Shown: positions 48,558 through 53,052 of the stretch, piece by piece | Position numbering within the stretch: position 1 is the first letter of the stretch | Layout of the letters: every line of letters starts with the position of its first letter | Origin: Hymenobacter sp. CRA2 | Lineage (GTDB): Bacteria > Bacteroidota > Bacteroidia > Cytophagales > Hymenobacteraceae | Assembly (NCBI RefSeq): GCF_002007105.1 | Contig: NZ_MVBC01000018.1 | Span: 1 to 64,000, forward strand | DNA length: 64,000 nucleotides | Direction: 5' to 3' | Made by a program: the position numbers and the translations under genes | Notes under the pieces: generated by a model | Told to the model about the DNA's origin: nothing | The model's database searches: none | Seen by the model: only the letters and a program-made list of their open reading frames with translations

Positions 48558-49595
48558 TTACAGTAGCTCCACGCCCGTGCCCATCAGTTCCGCGCGCACG
48601 GCTTCGGGCCAGATGCTCACTTGCACTTCGCCGATGTGCGTCTTGCGCAGCATGAACATGGTCACGCGCGACTGACCAATGCCGCCGCCGATGCTCTCCG
48701 TGAGCTGTCCTTCGAGCAGCATTTTGTGGAAGGCCAGCTCGGCGCGCTCAGGGCAGCCGCGCAGGGCCAGCTGCTTGTCCAGGGCCGTCTTGTCGACCCG
48801 AATGCCCATCGAGGACACCTCAAAGGCCGATTGCAGGCCCGGGTGCCAAAGCACGATGTCGCCGTTGAGGCCGCGGCGGCCAGCTTCGGTTTCGGTGCTC
48901 CAGTCATCATAGTCGGGGGCGCGGCCGTCGTGGATTTCGCCGTGACTCAGCTCGCCACCGATGCCGATGATGAATACGGCGCCGTATTCCTTGGCTGCTT
49001 CGGTTTCGCGCTGCTTCACCGTGAGCGTGGGGTAGCGCTGCAGCAGCTCCTCGGCGTGGATGAAGGTGATTTGCTCGGGCAGCACCGGCGTGATTTCCGG
49101 GTACTCCTCGGCCACGCGCAGCTCGGTGGTGCGCAGCGCGTCGTAGATTTTGCCGACGGTTTCTGTCAGGAACGGAATGGTGCGCTGCTCGGGCAGGATG
49201 TGCTTTTCCCAGTCCCACTGATCCACGTAGATCGAGTGAATGGGCGAATAATCCTCATCGGGGCGCAGGGCGCGCATGTCGGTGAGGATGCCGCGGCCCG
49301 CGGGAATACCCAGCTCACGGAGGCGCAGGCGTTTCCACTTGGCCAGCGAGTGCACCACCACGGCGCGCTGCTCCTGCAGGGCCTTGATGGGAAACGACAC
49401 GGGGCGCTCCACGCCGTTCAGGTCGTCGTTGATGCCGGTGCCATCGAGCACGGCGATGGGCGACGACACTTTGGTGAGCTGCAGCTGACGCGCAAGCTCC
49501 TTGGCGAAGGTGTCCTTCACGAAGCTGATGGCTTCCTCGGTTTTGAGCAGCTCCGTGGAGCTCAGGGTGTGGGCGGAGGCGGTGGCCGTTTCCAT
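48558..49595 (-). CDS. asnA: Aspartate-ammonia ligase (asparagine synthetase A), 345 aa
   Basis: The enzyme makes Asn from Asp, NH4+ and ATP. It resembles class II aminoacyl-tRNA synthetases and is recognised by AISFVKDTFAKELARQLQLT, VSSPIAVLDGTGINDDLNGV, ERPVSFPIKA, YVDQWDWEKHI and GLNGDIVLWHPGLQSAFEVS. GGIGQSRVTMFMLRKTHIGE, near the C-terminus, carries the class II motif 3-like Arg. The start at 49595 (METATASAHTL) is preferred to an open frame extending upstream. Transcription probably starts near 49918 and runs through a leader with an Asn-codon attenuator. Confidence 0.95.
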   Translation of the reverse strand: METATASAHTLSSTELLKTEEAISFVKDTFAKELARQLQLTKVSSPIAVLDGTGINDDLNGVERPVSFPIKALQEQRAVVVHSLAKWKRLRLRELGIPAGRGILTDMRALRPDEDYSPIHSIYVDQWDWEKHILPEQRTIPFLTETVGKIYDALRTTELRVAEEYPEITPVLPEQITFIHAEELLQRYPTLTVKQRETEAAKEYGAVFIIGIGGELSHGEIHDGRAPDYDDWSTETEAGRRGLNGDIVLWHPGLQSAFEVSSMGIRVDKTALDKQLALRGCPERAELAFHKMLLEGQLTESIGGGIGQSRVTMFMLRKTHIGEVQVSIWPEAVRAELMGTGVELL

Positions 49596-49672
49596 AGTTA
49601 TTTGGGTTTTTATGTGTGTGAAAGTGTGTTTTCGGTTTGGATTTCCTGAAGTATTGGCAAGGCTCCGCCCGG

Positions 49673-49697
49673 CCGAAAAAACGGGCTGTTTTTTCGG
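49673..49697 (-). other. Second hairpin in the asnA leader
   Basis: CCGAAAAAAC / GTTTTTTCGG is a perfect 10-bp stem with a 5-nt loop between the attenuator and the asnA start. It has no following T-run on the minus strand, so it is not a terminator; its role is unknown. Confidence 0.5.
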
Positions 49698-49731
49698 AAT
49701 CAGGAAACCTTGAAATGCTCGTGGAAGGGCG

Positions 49732-49761
49732 AAAAAAAAGCCTTCCGTTTTCGGAAGGCTT
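49732..49761 (-). terminator. Attenuator terminator upstream of asnA
   Basis: On the minus strand AAGCCTTCCG (49761-49752), loop AAAA and CGGAAGGCTT (49747-49738) form a perfect 10-bp stem, followed by a U8 run at 49739-49732. It lies about 137 nt before the asnA start codon and 33 nt after the leader-peptide stop, so it would end transcription before asnA. Confidence 0.85.
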
Positions 49762-49793
49762 ACAAAATCAATTACTGATTCAGTGTCTGTCAA

Positions 49794-49871
49794 TCAGACC
49801 AATAGCCTTCCATGTCGGAATAGATTATTATTCCGATTCTGGTTATTGAGGCTGTTGGCGAACTGACGCAT
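49794..49871 (-). CDS. Asn-rich leader peptide of asnA, 25 aa
   Basis: ATG at 49871 begins MRQFANSLNNQNRNNNLFR, then HGRLLV and TGA at 49796-49794. Seven of 25 residues are Asn, with three consecutive AAT codons. Five of the seven Asn codons are AAT although the surrounding genes use AAC heavily. The three AAT codons lie inside a 7-bp hairpin, CGGAATA / TATTCCG (49816-49835). Codons 21-23 contain GGAAGGCT (49811-49804), complementary to the 5' arm of the terminator. These parts are those of a classical ribosome-controlled attenuator sensing charged tRNA-Asn. Confidence 0.8.
   Translation of the reverse strand: MRQFANSLNNQNRNNNLFRHGRLLV
49804..49835 (-). promoter_or_regulatory. Pause hairpin and antiterminator segment of the asnA leader
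   Basis: The pause-type hairpin CGGAATA-N6-TATTCCG (49835-49816) contains the tandem Asn codons. The antiterminator segment GGAAGGCT (49811-49804) is the same sequence as the 3' arm of the terminator and can pair with its 5' arm AGCCTTCC instead. A ribosome stalled on the Asn codons would open the first hairpin and favour the antiterminator; one that reaches the UGA would cover the segment and allow termination. Confidence 0.75.
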
Positions 49872-49925
49872 GAGGCTGCTTTAGGGGCGTTTCGAGGGCT
49901 AAAATAAGAGCCTGAGTTTAAGCTG

Positions 49926-49955
49926 CAAAAATATTTATCAAATAATTTTTCCAAG
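49926..49955 (-). promoter_or_regulatory. asnA promoter
   Basis: On the minus strand TTGG (49954-49951) is followed after 17 nt by TATTTTTG (49933-49926), an exact TAnnTTTG -7 element. The predicted start near 49918 leaves about 47 nt before the leader-peptide ATG. Confidence 0.7.
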
Positions 49956-50129
49956 TTCGGCAGTTCTCGCACGCGTGGGATATATCGTCACGTTGCAGGC
50001 CTGCCCTGCCCGAGCCAACATACCCGGGTTTGGTGCTTGGCGGCCTGGGGCCTTCCTTTGCAGCGCGAAAAAGCCGTAGCTCGACCGGAACAGCCCGCCT
50101 GCTCCCTCGTACACCTACCGCTCCCTTCT

Positions 50130-50531
50130 GTGCCCCCGTTGCCCGTGCGCCAAGCCATTGCCATTCTGCTTCTCTGTTCGCTGTCGGTGCACTGCGCCGG
50201 GCGCTTGGGCATTGTGGCCAGCTGGTGGCTCAACCGCGACTACGTGGCCCGCGTGCTCTGCATCAACCGCGACAAGCCGCAGATGCACTGCAACGGCAAG
50301 TGCCACCTGCGCAAACAGCTGCGCGCGGCCGACGCCCGCGAAGCCAAGCAGCAGCCCGGCCCCAGCAAGCAGGCGTTTCAGGAAATCGTGCTGGCCTGCC
50401 CGGTCCTGGAGCCCGTAGCGCTGCCAGCGCCAGCGTGGTACGCGGGGGCGGCGCCGCGCTACGCAGCTCTGTGCGTGCCCCAGTACGCCTGGGACCGGCC
50501 CGGGCCGGAGTACCCGCCCGCGGAGGGCTGA
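50130..50531 (+). CDS. Small membrane-anchored protein with CNGKC motif, 133 aa
   Basis: I chose GTG 50130, which places a hydrophobic N-terminal segment (AIAILLLCSLSVHCAGRLGI) near the start; GTG 50145 is also possible. The next part, NRDYVARVLCINRDKPQMHC then NGKCHLRKQLR, carries Cys residues in the C-x8-C-NGKC arrangement found in small proteins beside TonB receptor/PepSY loci in Bacteroidota. It is probably in the inner membrane facing the periplasm and may bind metal, which is inference. It lies 104 bp upstream of the TonB receptor and is likely in the same operon. Confidence 0.7.
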   Translation: MPPLPVRQAIAILLLCSLSVHCAGRLGIVASWWLNRDYVARVLCINRDKPQMHCNGKCHLRKQLRAADAREAKQQPGPSKQAFQEIVLACPVLEPVALPAPAWYAGAAPRYAALCVPQYAWDRPGPEYPPAEG

Positions 50532-50634: not shown

Positions 50635-53052
50635 GTGAAGAAAGCTTTACCGCTGTTGCTGGCCCTTGTGGGGGCGGGGCAGGCAGCCTGGGCGCAGCGT
50701 AGCCTCTCGGGGCGCGTGTTCGACGCCACGACCAAAGAACCCCTCATTGGCGCTACCGTGCGCACGGCCGACGGCCAGCTGGGCACCGCCACCAACGGCA
50801 CCGGGCAGTTTACCCTTGCCACCACTGCTTCGCAGCTGGTAGTGACGGCCGTGGGCTACCAGCCGCAAACCTTAGCGGTACCCACCGACGGCACCGCCCT
50901 GCGCGTGGCGCTGGCCCCGGCCGTGCAGGATTTGCAGACGGTGGTGGTGACGGCCTCGCGCGAGGCGCAGCTGCGCACCGAGGCCCCGGTGGCCATCAGC
51001 AAACTCTCCCCAACCGTCATTCAGGACACCAAGCCGACCTTGCTGGTGGAGCTCATCAACAAGGTGCCGGGCGTGGTGATGCTCAACTACGGCAACGAGC
51101 AGCACGCCATGGGCATTCGGCAGCCCTTCGGCACCAATGCCTACTTTCTGTACCTGGAAGACGGCGTACCGCTGCGGCCCATGGGCGTGTTCAACCACAA
51201 CGCCCTGCTGGAGACAAACCCGCTGGCCATCAACTCCATCGAAGTAGTGAAAGGCCCGGCTTCGTCGCTGTACGGGCCGGAGGCCGTGGGCGGGGCCGTG
51301 AACGTGCTGACCAAGCGCCCGACCAGCGTGCCCACGGCCAGCCTGGGCGTGCAGGGCGACCAGTACGGCTACCGCCGGGTGCAGTTCGGCGGCGGGGGCA
51401 TGGTTACGCCGAAGCTCGGGGCTTACGTGAGCGGCTACGTGGCGCGGCAGCGCGACTCCTGGCTAGCCTCGTCGGATTACAATAAGCAGTCGGTGAACGG
51501 GCGGGTGGGATATGCCCTGACCGAGCGCACCCGGCTGACGGCCGCCGCCTCGTACAACAACTACGACTCGCAGACCAGCAGCAGCATCGACAGCGTGGCC
51601 TACTACCGGCGTGAGTACTCGTCGACCTCGGACTTCACTTACCGCAAAACCTACGCGCTGCGGGCCCGCCTCACGGCCGAGCAGCAGTGGAACGCGCAGA
51701 ATGTCAGCACGCTTACAGCTTACTTCCGCGACAACAGCGTGGGCCAGAACCCGAGCTACGGCATCCGCTGGAACCCGACGCCCTCGGCCACGAACGACCC
51801 CAGCAAGGCCAAGGGCGAGGTCAACGTCAATGCCTTCCGCAGCTACGGCCTGCTGGCCCAGCACAGCGTGCGGTTCGCTTGGCTGAACTCGCACTTACTC
51901 GGCGGGGCCAGCTTCGACTACTCCCCTACCCGCTACGACGCCCACCAGATAGACCTGGCGGCCCAGCTGCGGCCGGGCGGAAAATCGGTGGCGCAGTATA
52001 CCGTGCTGGCCGACCGGCCCGACTTGCCCATTGCCGATTACGACACGGATCTGCGCAACGCGGCCGTGTACGCGCAGTTCGACCTGCATCCCATCGGCGC
52101 CCTGCCGCAGCTGCAGCTCACGCTGGGCGGCCGCTTCGACCGGCTGGCCTTCGATTACCACAACTACCTGGACGAGTCGGTGGGCGCGAAGGTGTACCAG
52201 CAGGCCACCCCGAAAGCGGGCCTGACCTATGACCTGGGCAAGGGCCGCGGCGTGTATGCCAACTACTCGCAGGGCTTTTCGCCGCCCGGCCTCACGTCCA
52301 TCTTCCGCAAGCGGCCCGGCACCGGTGTCACTACGGGCGGCGTGAGCGTGCCGGCCGATTTCTACTACAACCTGCGGCCGGCGCGCTTCTACAACAAGGA
52401 AGTGGGCGGCTGGGTGTCGTTGCTCGCGGGCAAGGTGTACCTCGACGTGGCCCTGTACCAGCTGGACGGCCGCAACGAGCTGCTGAGCATCCGCCAGCCC
52501 GACAACTCTACCGACTACCAGAGCGCCGGCAAAACCCTGCACCGCGGCGTGGAATACGGCCTCACGTACCGCCCGACGCCGGAGCTGCTGTTTCGCTTCG
52601 GGGGCACCAACGCTGTGCACCGTTTCGAGGAGTTCGTGCTGAGTACCAAGGCCTCCGACGCCGTGCAAAACGCCAACGGCAAGCAGATGCCGCAGGCTCC
52701 GTACTGGGTGGCCAATACCGAACTGACCTACAAGCCGCAGTGGCTCCCCGGCCTGCGCGTGGCGGCTGAGTACCAACGCATCAGTGCCTGGTATCAGGAC
52801 CAGATCAACCAGGTGCGCTACGACGACCGGGGCCTGTTCGGGGCCCGCGGAGTCAGCGTGCTGAATATGCGCACCGGCTACAGCTGGCGCGAAACCGTGG
52901 AGGTCTTCGTGAACGTGCTCAACGTGACCAACGAGCTGTACGCCACCGCCGCCACCCGCGGCAACAACGCCACCGACCGCAGCACTTACACGCCCGGCGC
53001 GCCCCGCACCGTGAGCGTGGGCCTGCAGTACAACTTCATTGGTAAAAAGTAG
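50635..53052 (+). CDS. TonB-dependent outer-membrane receptor, 805 aa
   Basis: GTG 50635 gives a signal peptide (MKKALPLLLALVGAGQAAWA, first codon GTG). A carboxypeptidase-regulatory-like domain (SLSGRVFDATTKEPLIGATV) covers about residues 22-100, with the TonB-box-like segment QTVVVTASREAQLRTEAPVA after it. The plug has YLEDGVPLRPMG and SIEVVKGPASSLYGPEAVGG, and the rest is a 22-strand barrel ending in GLQYNFIGKK. The SREAQLRTEAPV type is usual for ferric-siderophore or copper receptors. The neighbours (CNGKC protein and PepSY protein) support metal uptake. Confidence 0.9.
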   Translation: MKKALPLLLALVGAGQAAWAQRSLSGRVFDATTKEPLIGATVRTADGQLGTATNGTGQFTLATTASQLVVTAVGYQPQTLAVPTDGTALRVALAPAVQDLQTVVVTASREAQLRTEAPVAISKLSPTVIQDTKPTLLVELINKVPGVVMLNYGNEQHAMGIRQPFGTNAYFLYLEDGVPLRPMGVFNHNALLETNPLAINSIEVVKGPASSLYGPEAVGGAVNVLTKRPTSVPTASLGVQGDQYGYRRVQFGGGGMVTPKLGAYVSGYVARQRDSWLASSDYNKQSVNGRVGYALTERTRLTAAASYNNYDSQTSSSIDSVAYYRREYSSTSDFTYRKTYALRARLTAEQQWNAQNVSTLTAYFRDNSVGQNPSYGIRWNPTPSATNDPSKAKGEVNVNAFRSYGLLAQHSVRFAWLNSHLLGGASFDYSPTRYDAHQIDLAAQLRPGGKSVAQYTVLADRPDLPIADYDTDLRNAAVYAQFDLHPIGALPQLQLTLGGRFDRLAFDYHNYLDESVGAKVYQQATPKAGLTYDLGKGRGVYANYSQGFSPPGLTSIFRKRPGTGVTTGGVSVPADFYYNLRPARFYNKEVGGWVSLLAGKVYLDVALYQLDGRNELLSIRQPDNSTDYQSAGKTLHRGVEYGLTYRPTPELLFRFGGTNAVHRFEEFVLSTKASDAVQNANGKQMPQAPYWVANTELTYKPQWLPGLRVAAEYQRISAWYQDQINQVRYDDRGLFGARGVSVLNMRTGYSWRETVEVFVNVLNVTNELYATAATRGNNATDRSTYTPGAPRTVSVGLQYNFIGKK

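Follow-up and report, generated by a model that had tools for sequence, protein, structure and literature searches.

A putative asparagine-specific leader-peptide attenuator upstream of asnA in Hymenobacter and other Bacteroidota

Leader-peptide attenuators are known from the trp, his, leu, ilv, thr and phe operons of Proteobacteria, and asnA is under T-box control in some Firmicutes. We know of no ribosome-controlled Asn attenuator on asnA in Bacteroidota.

Within this phylum, strong clues for leader-peptide attenuation have been reported upstream of amino-acid operons of Flavobacterium psychrophilum (PMC9723704). Phylum and proposed mechanism are shared with the element described here; asparagine, asnA and asnB are absent from the main text of that report. 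Leader-like ORFs have also been reported in B. thetaiotaomicron (PMC7366714). In Rhodobacterales, uORFC-8-2 was proposed as a Cys attenuator before cysS (PMC8632094). Like the asnA leader, it is a proposed ribosome-mediated element for a residue outside the classic six, yet it differs in amino acid, gene and lineage (Cys, cysS, Alphaproteobacteria). The main texts of PMC2965389 and PMC8632094 do not name asnA. Our literature search returned no earlier Asn attenuator, the survey of Lopatovskaya et al. 2010 (Mol Biol 44:128, cited in PMC4833913) being a place that could contain one; as far as this search reached, the mechanism is known and the amino acid, Asn, is new.

How does the asnA locus of Hymenobacter sp. 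CRA2 compare? Like the trp, his, thr, leu, ilv and phe attenuators of Proteobacteria, the asnA leader contains an ORF rich in codons for the end product of the pathway. As in the trp/his type, an antiterminator is the alternative to an intrinsic terminator, the stop codon is placed such that a finished ribosome would cover segment 2, and a 1:2 stem is predicted here as well. Unlike those systems, it involves Asn and asnA in Bacteroidota with their own promoter type, carries an extra hairpin inside the Asn codons, and occurs in tandem copies in deep lineages.

Anatomy of the asnA leader

We analyzed a 64,000-nt stretch of contig NZ_MVBC01000018.1 (referred to as the window), in which asnA, encoding aspartate--ammonia ligase, occupies 48558–49595 on the minus strand. 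Its product matches TIGR00669 in a profile search (E 7.1e-122; 406.8 bits, cut-off 292.8) and is the single match in the genome. Upstream of the gene, leader, hairpin, antiterminator and terminator all sit on the minus strand where the original prediction had placed them. The leader ORF (49794–49871), which agrees base for base with the 25-codon leader described there, encodes MRQFANSLNNQNRNNNLFRHGRLLV, followed by the stop codon. Seven of its 25 codons specify Asn (five are AAT), so that end-product codons are repeated ahead of asnA; given that Asn makes up 3.15% of codons in long ORFs of the window, seven or more Asn residues in 25 codons have a probability of 9e-6. Our reference for both Asn frequency and codon use were window ORFs of 350+ codons with GC3 > 0.65. 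The preference for AAT seen in this one leader extends to 39 leaders (AAT 226, AAC 77), compared with 8 AAT and 148 AAC in the asnA genes of those loci and 58 AAT and 323 AAC in the long ORFs of the window. AAT may be preferred in leaders because their hairpins need A-U pairs; this may be reason enough, and we make no claim about an effect on codon speed.

The NNN codons themselves form a hairpin (49816–49835, CGGAATA-ATAATC-TATTCCG), as predicted, which counts 8 bp when the flanking U-A is included. Downstream lies segment 2, the antiterminator GGAAGGCT (49804–49811), whose predicted complementarity to the 5′ arm of the terminator we recovered. This arm, segment 3 (AAGCCTTCCG, 49752–49761), can pair with either segment 2 or segment 4, the latter comprising the 3′ arm and the U-run (T8; 49732–49747). 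Together they make up the perfect 10-bp terminator of the original prediction, AAGCCTTCCG-AAAA-CGGAAGGCTT (49761–49738) with the T-run extending to 49732, an intrinsic terminator between the leader and asnA whose U-run ends 136 nt ahead of the asnA ATG. The 169-nt leader folds with z = -4.8. In the free leader an additional stem, 1:2, is predicted, in which the region of the first Asn codon (segment 1, GCCAACAGCCT, 49849–49859) pairs with ..GGCTATTGG.. following the antiterminator; the part of segment 2 involved is AGGCTATTGGT (49798–49808), and its ATTG is nearly invariant. This stem is part of the window's minimum-energy fold.

A second stable hairpin is found between the attenuator terminator and asnA (49610–49731, minus strand; z -3.9). 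Its counterpart reaches z -2.9 in L016; those of L009 (z -1.5) and L028 (z -0.6) lack significance.

One element had to be replaced. The promoter originally proposed, TTGG-N17-TATTTTTG, is not conserved among the nearest relatives (L002–L007). Bacteroidota promoters follow the consensus TTTG / TAnnTTTG, and judged by sequence a better position for the promoter is TTTG-N19-TATTTTAG, closer to the leader, with a -33 element TTTG at 49926–49929 and the -7 element TATTTTAG at 49899–49906 (both minus strand), 27 nt before the leader ATG. This pair has nine of ten matches to that consensus and is kept in L002–L005 at a spacing of 19 or 20. Among 49 upstream regions (all but those of L034 and L039), 35 reach at least 8/10 at such a place, compared to 3.8% of shuffles, and the other 14 score lower.

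Conservation and the modelled switch

For comparison, we took the best 80 of 333 AsnA relatives in named genomes and inspected the regions upstream of their genes, all by script and most also by eye. The leaders of L034 and L039, the latter starting with GTG, fall outside the length and start rules of the script and were recognised by eye. In the resulting alignment (A1, 51 rows), the antiterminator is paired in 96.8% of cells (slid controls, 35–67%) and the terminator in 94.7% (slid controls, 32–75%), with changes on both sides in four of eight and six of ten pairs, respectively. Within rows, and leaving out L029, the row's own antiterminator segment outperforms 95% of shuffles in 47 of 50 cases. 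Linked changes are found in L035 (GAGAGGCT with AGCCTCTC), L054 (GGAAAGGTT with AGCCTTTCC) and L072 (GCGGGC with GCCCGC). An antiterminator that excludes the terminator is thus accompanied by covariation, and the conservation test on relatives that had been proposed along with the prediction finds both the Asn codons and the complementarity of GGAAGGCT kept, with compensatory changes.

The Asn-codon hairpin surpasses codon shuffles (p<=0.05) in 32 of 51 rows and does not in the other 19; in L002, a change from AAT to AAC is matched by one from CTA to CTG, so that residues and pairing are both kept. The 1:2 stem is paired in 79.2% of A1 cells, compared to 30–54% for slid versions, and its covariation score is 0.233 (slid, 0.038–0.130); two measures based on counts of pairs or types are no higher than in shuffles (310 and 197 of 500). 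In free energy, the 1:2 duplex beats codon shuffles at p<=0.05 in 21 of 51 rows and does not in 30, with p 0.06 for the window's own duplex. Modelling suggests that the 1:2 stem would hide the antiterminator in the free leader, by energy strongly only in some lineages.

The spacing between codons and pairing segments is more uniform than the peptide. Leader lengths range from 18 to 56 codons, and the C-terminal tail shifts reading frame between clades (GRLLV versus WKAIAP) with the nucleotides GGAAGGCTATTG kept. Across these two frames, 15 or 16 nt separate the start of the last Asn codon from the antiterminator in 38 of 51 rows, meaning that the nucleotides are conserved and the peptide tail is not. 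It is at this distance that the edge of a stalled ribosome would fall. In 12 of 51 rows, the stop codon falls beyond the range of -14..+18 nt relative to the end of the antiterminator.

We modelled the consequences for a ribosome whose edge was assumed to lie +13 nt from the A-site codon, counted from its first base. In the window, the modelled P(2:3) of 0.11 for ribosome-free RNA becomes 0.92 when any of codons 3–16 occupies the A site, and 0.00 for codon 19 and all later codons up to the stop; codon 16 is both the last Asn codon and the last codon before the modelled switch starts to fall. Averaged over rows, P(2:3) amounts to 0.68 without a ribosome (50 rows, L029 left out), 0.91 with the ribosome stalled on Asn (48 rows, L034 and L039 also left out) and 0.00 at the stop (44 rows), and in 14 rows it rises by more than 0.3 on stalling. 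In the model, the Asn switch is therefore general, whereas the lock without a ribosome is not. Both geometry and model place the control codons such that a stall frees segment 2 and a finished ribosome masks it.

From the anatomy, conservation, covariation and spacing, we infer the following course of events. Transcription would start ~20 nt before the leader. When Asn is short, a ribosome would stall on the Asn codons, break the 1:2 stem and leave GGAAGGCT free; segments 2 and 3 would then pair before segment 4 emerges, and RNA polymerase would continue into asnA. When Asn is ample, the ribosome would reach the stop codon and cover GGAAGGCT, allowing the 3:4 terminator to form. With no ribosome on the leader, the 1:2 stem may hold segment 2 in the window and in some lineages, leading to termination.

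Distribution of Asn leaders in the Bacteroidota

Leaders like that of the window (type 1) precede asnA at 50 of the 80 loci, including all 39 of Hymenobacter and Solirubrum, and are not limited to the Hymenobacteraceae. A second kind (type 2) is present at 12 loci, ten times in series behind type 1; 28 loci have neither, among them Sphingobacterium and some Chitinophagaceae and Bacteroidales. Leader classes are strongly clustered in an AsnA tree (80 rows, L044 dropped as a short reading), with 6 changes as compared to 32.4 in shuffles. Such clustering fits inheritance together with the gene, in a tree whose deep branches are weakly supported.

Searches with a model of the type-1 leader (R1) gave a consistent picture at closer range. 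All eight genomes of the genus sample contain asnA and a strong R1 match. In the family sample, asnA is found in 31 of 120 genomes, 24 of which have a strong R1 match 180–206 nt upstream on the same strand; in the other seven (genera g3 and g4), neither a strong R1 match nor, by eye, a leader was seen. Given these seven genomes and the 28 leaderless loci, asnA does not require the leader. Conversely, two genomes without an asnA match, G043 and G067, have strong R1 matches (106.3 and 97.8 bits; L093:416-557 and L094:420-565). These orphan leaders stand alone before an opposite-strand ORF and have six Asn codons in the runs SNNSTNN and MNNSANN, with no triple; antiterminator and terminator are kept.

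Across the phylum, asnA was found in 17 of 345 sampled genomes. When the upstream regions of 14 further asnA genomes from the phylum were read, an Asn-rich leader was seen in one (L136, G426) and no leader in the other 13. In L136, the leader NANLNSNLNLNANNNAMTAGG (followed by a stop) and a terminator precede a distant asnA in a GC-rich stretch, the pairing being judged by eye; perhaps this leader is of independent origin. AsnA is also encoded at three loci in viral contigs, two of which (L172, L173) were examined upstream and showed no leader.

Type-2 leaders read like MLKGFFINNNNNNCPP or MMFNIINNNNNNNNAPP, each ending in a stop. Among 24 different ones, Pro-Pro follows the Asn run in 20, Pro directly precedes the stop in 17, and Pro-Pro-stop is found in 13. 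The Pro codons vary at their third base (CCA, CCT, CCC, CCG), which points to the peptide. Type-2 antiterminators lie near the stop and are individually weak, with nine of 23 beating 95% of shuffles (L047 left out); their distance from the last Asn codon is looser (7–21 nt, median 19). Two Asn leaders in series before asnA were observed in L035, L039, L044, L046, L047, L052, L054, L060, L066, L072, L146, L148, L157 and L161. Among 47 genomes in the family of G472, asnA was matched in 15 (14 of them above cut-off), and all 15, which include L069 and L058 again as well as L149 with three Asn only, carry Asn leaders of one or both kinds. In that of G466, asnA is present in three of six genomes (L052 and L046 being counted again), each with both leaders. 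A type-2 model (R2) run on 12 whole genomes matched at asnA in 11, as expected for a model built from those leaders, and gave one extra match in G463. Elsewhere in the phylum, R2 returned two matches in 340 genomes, both chance on inspection.

This extra match, in the Seonamhaeicola MAG from which L044 comes (G463), precedes a gatC-gatA-gatB operon. Seonamhaeicola belongs to the Flavobacteriaceae, and in G463 and its relatives an Asn leader precedes gatCAB in six of 39 genomes, as for instance MRNNNNNNNSNNPII, followed by a stop (L163 and L166–L171, where L163 and L171 are one place; the leader is near 1500–1672 in L166–L171). In a seventh genome with a match, G535, the type-2 leader is at asnA. 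All six gatCAB leaders have antiterminators of 8–9 bp at p<=0.05. Profile checks of the operon's gene names cover G463, where GatB passes the NCBIfam cut-off and GatA (435.0 versus 481.1 bits) and GatC (25.8 versus 47.1) stay below theirs, yet are the best-scoring families; the other five operons were named by sequence likeness. GlnRS is above cut-off in all six genomes, meaning that GatCAB is not needed for Gln-tRNA in them. Asn-tRNA is the other known product of GatCAB, and leaders at this operon hint at Asn-tRNA itself as what is being sensed. As a separate observation, the window's genome (G000) contains no GlnRS above cut-off (best, 41.8 bits), so that its Gln-tRNA is probably made by GatCAB.

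Is the design restricted to Asn? Among 20 weak R1 matches examined out of 65 in the phylum, 12 proved to be leaders that belong to other operons, with residues suited to the respective pathway, as did one of six in the family sample. The latter, L096, is a Thr/Ile leader before thrA. The former comprise Ile/Val/Leu leaders before ilvD, ilvA, ilvN and ilvE (L109, L111–L114, L116–L118 and L121), a Lys/Ile/Thr leader before asd (L115), and Cys-rich leaders before a cysH-like gene (L122, about 181–273 of the read strand) and a siroheme/cysG-like gene (L124, about 207–281 of the read strand). Gene names were profile-checked for L096, L124 and L114 and otherwise read from sequence. The skeleton of the thrA, ilv and asd leaders is close to that of the asnA leader, and the pathway-fitting residues place the asnA element within a broader attenuator design of this phylum. 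The remaining weak matches look like chance in the family sample (L095, L097–L100) and like chance or unrelated terminators in the phylum sample (L108, L110, L119, L120, L123, L125–L127).

Alternative explanations and biological meaning

Could the terminator be a fixed roadblock, or belong to an upstream gene, with asnA transcribed from its own downstream promoter and the Asn-rich ORF incidental? The 136 nt between U-run and asnA leave room for a promoter in addition to the stable hairpin located there, and a short minus-strand ORF upstream of the leader (49988–50233) may be a gene. However, the first recognisable upstream gene, encoding a TonB receptor (50635–53052), is on the plus strand, which makes the end of an upstream gene an unlikely role for the terminator; the ORF ahead of it (50037–50531), also on the plus strand, is without a Pfam match. 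No sigma-70-like promoter was found in 49500–50300, by a consensus that is not of the Bacteroidota type, and an incidental ORF hardly accounts for Asn codons, spacing and an antiterminator conserved with compensatory changes. We regard this explanation as highly improbable, and only slightly more credible than one in which the stall reflects translational coupling or a different block (polyamine, antibiotic, general elongation block) rather than Asn-tRNA supply. In our model, any stall at codons 3–16 would indeed give antitermination; still, Asn is the residue enriched in the leader rows, and it recurs at gatCAB.

Two further readings strike us as less credible again. As some Firmicutes control asnA through a T-box, a riboswitch or T-box might sense Asn or uncharged tRNA without translation. 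Yet a search of the whole 64-kb window gave no Rfam family at its gathering score, on which grounds we discarded a T-box, riboswitch or other Rfam element (the window is also devoid of tRNAs), and what is conserved are in-frame Asn codons, whether AAT or AAC. Likewise very improbable is a leader that encodes a functional small protein, with the terminator as a side feature. Its start codon and Asn-rich core are widely conserved in A1, as such a protein would require, but the shift of frame in the tail over unchanged nucleotides and the variable length speak against it.

What remains is the Asn-specific attenuator of the original prediction, a reading supported at the sequence level by conserved Asn codons, covariation and spacing. 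With a probability of about 0.9, the asnA leader would gate asnA in response to Asn-tRNA supply, acting as a ribosome-mediated transcription attenuator like those of trp, his and thr. With less confidence, though still on the favorable side, we propose a Bacteroidota Asn-tRNA regulon controlled by leader-peptide attenuation, wherein one skeleton serves asnA as well as gatCAB of Flavobacteriaceae, attenuators act in series in deep lineages, and the Pro-Pro of type-2 leaders near the stop delays ribosome release and so lowers basal readthrough. It is an open point of attenuation modelling whether basal readthrough is set by the release of ribosomes at the stop codon (Elf and Ehrenberg, PMC1183508), one that the tandem and Pro-Pro designs make directly testable. 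If the attenuator reading is true, Asn would be added to the list of amino acids with a known ribosome-controlled attenuator as their sensor, and the asnA leader would provide a clear comparative case for the Bacteroidota, where we found such control described only in general terms. For the bacterium itself, the leader appears to be a means to make asparagine only when ribosomes run short of Asn.
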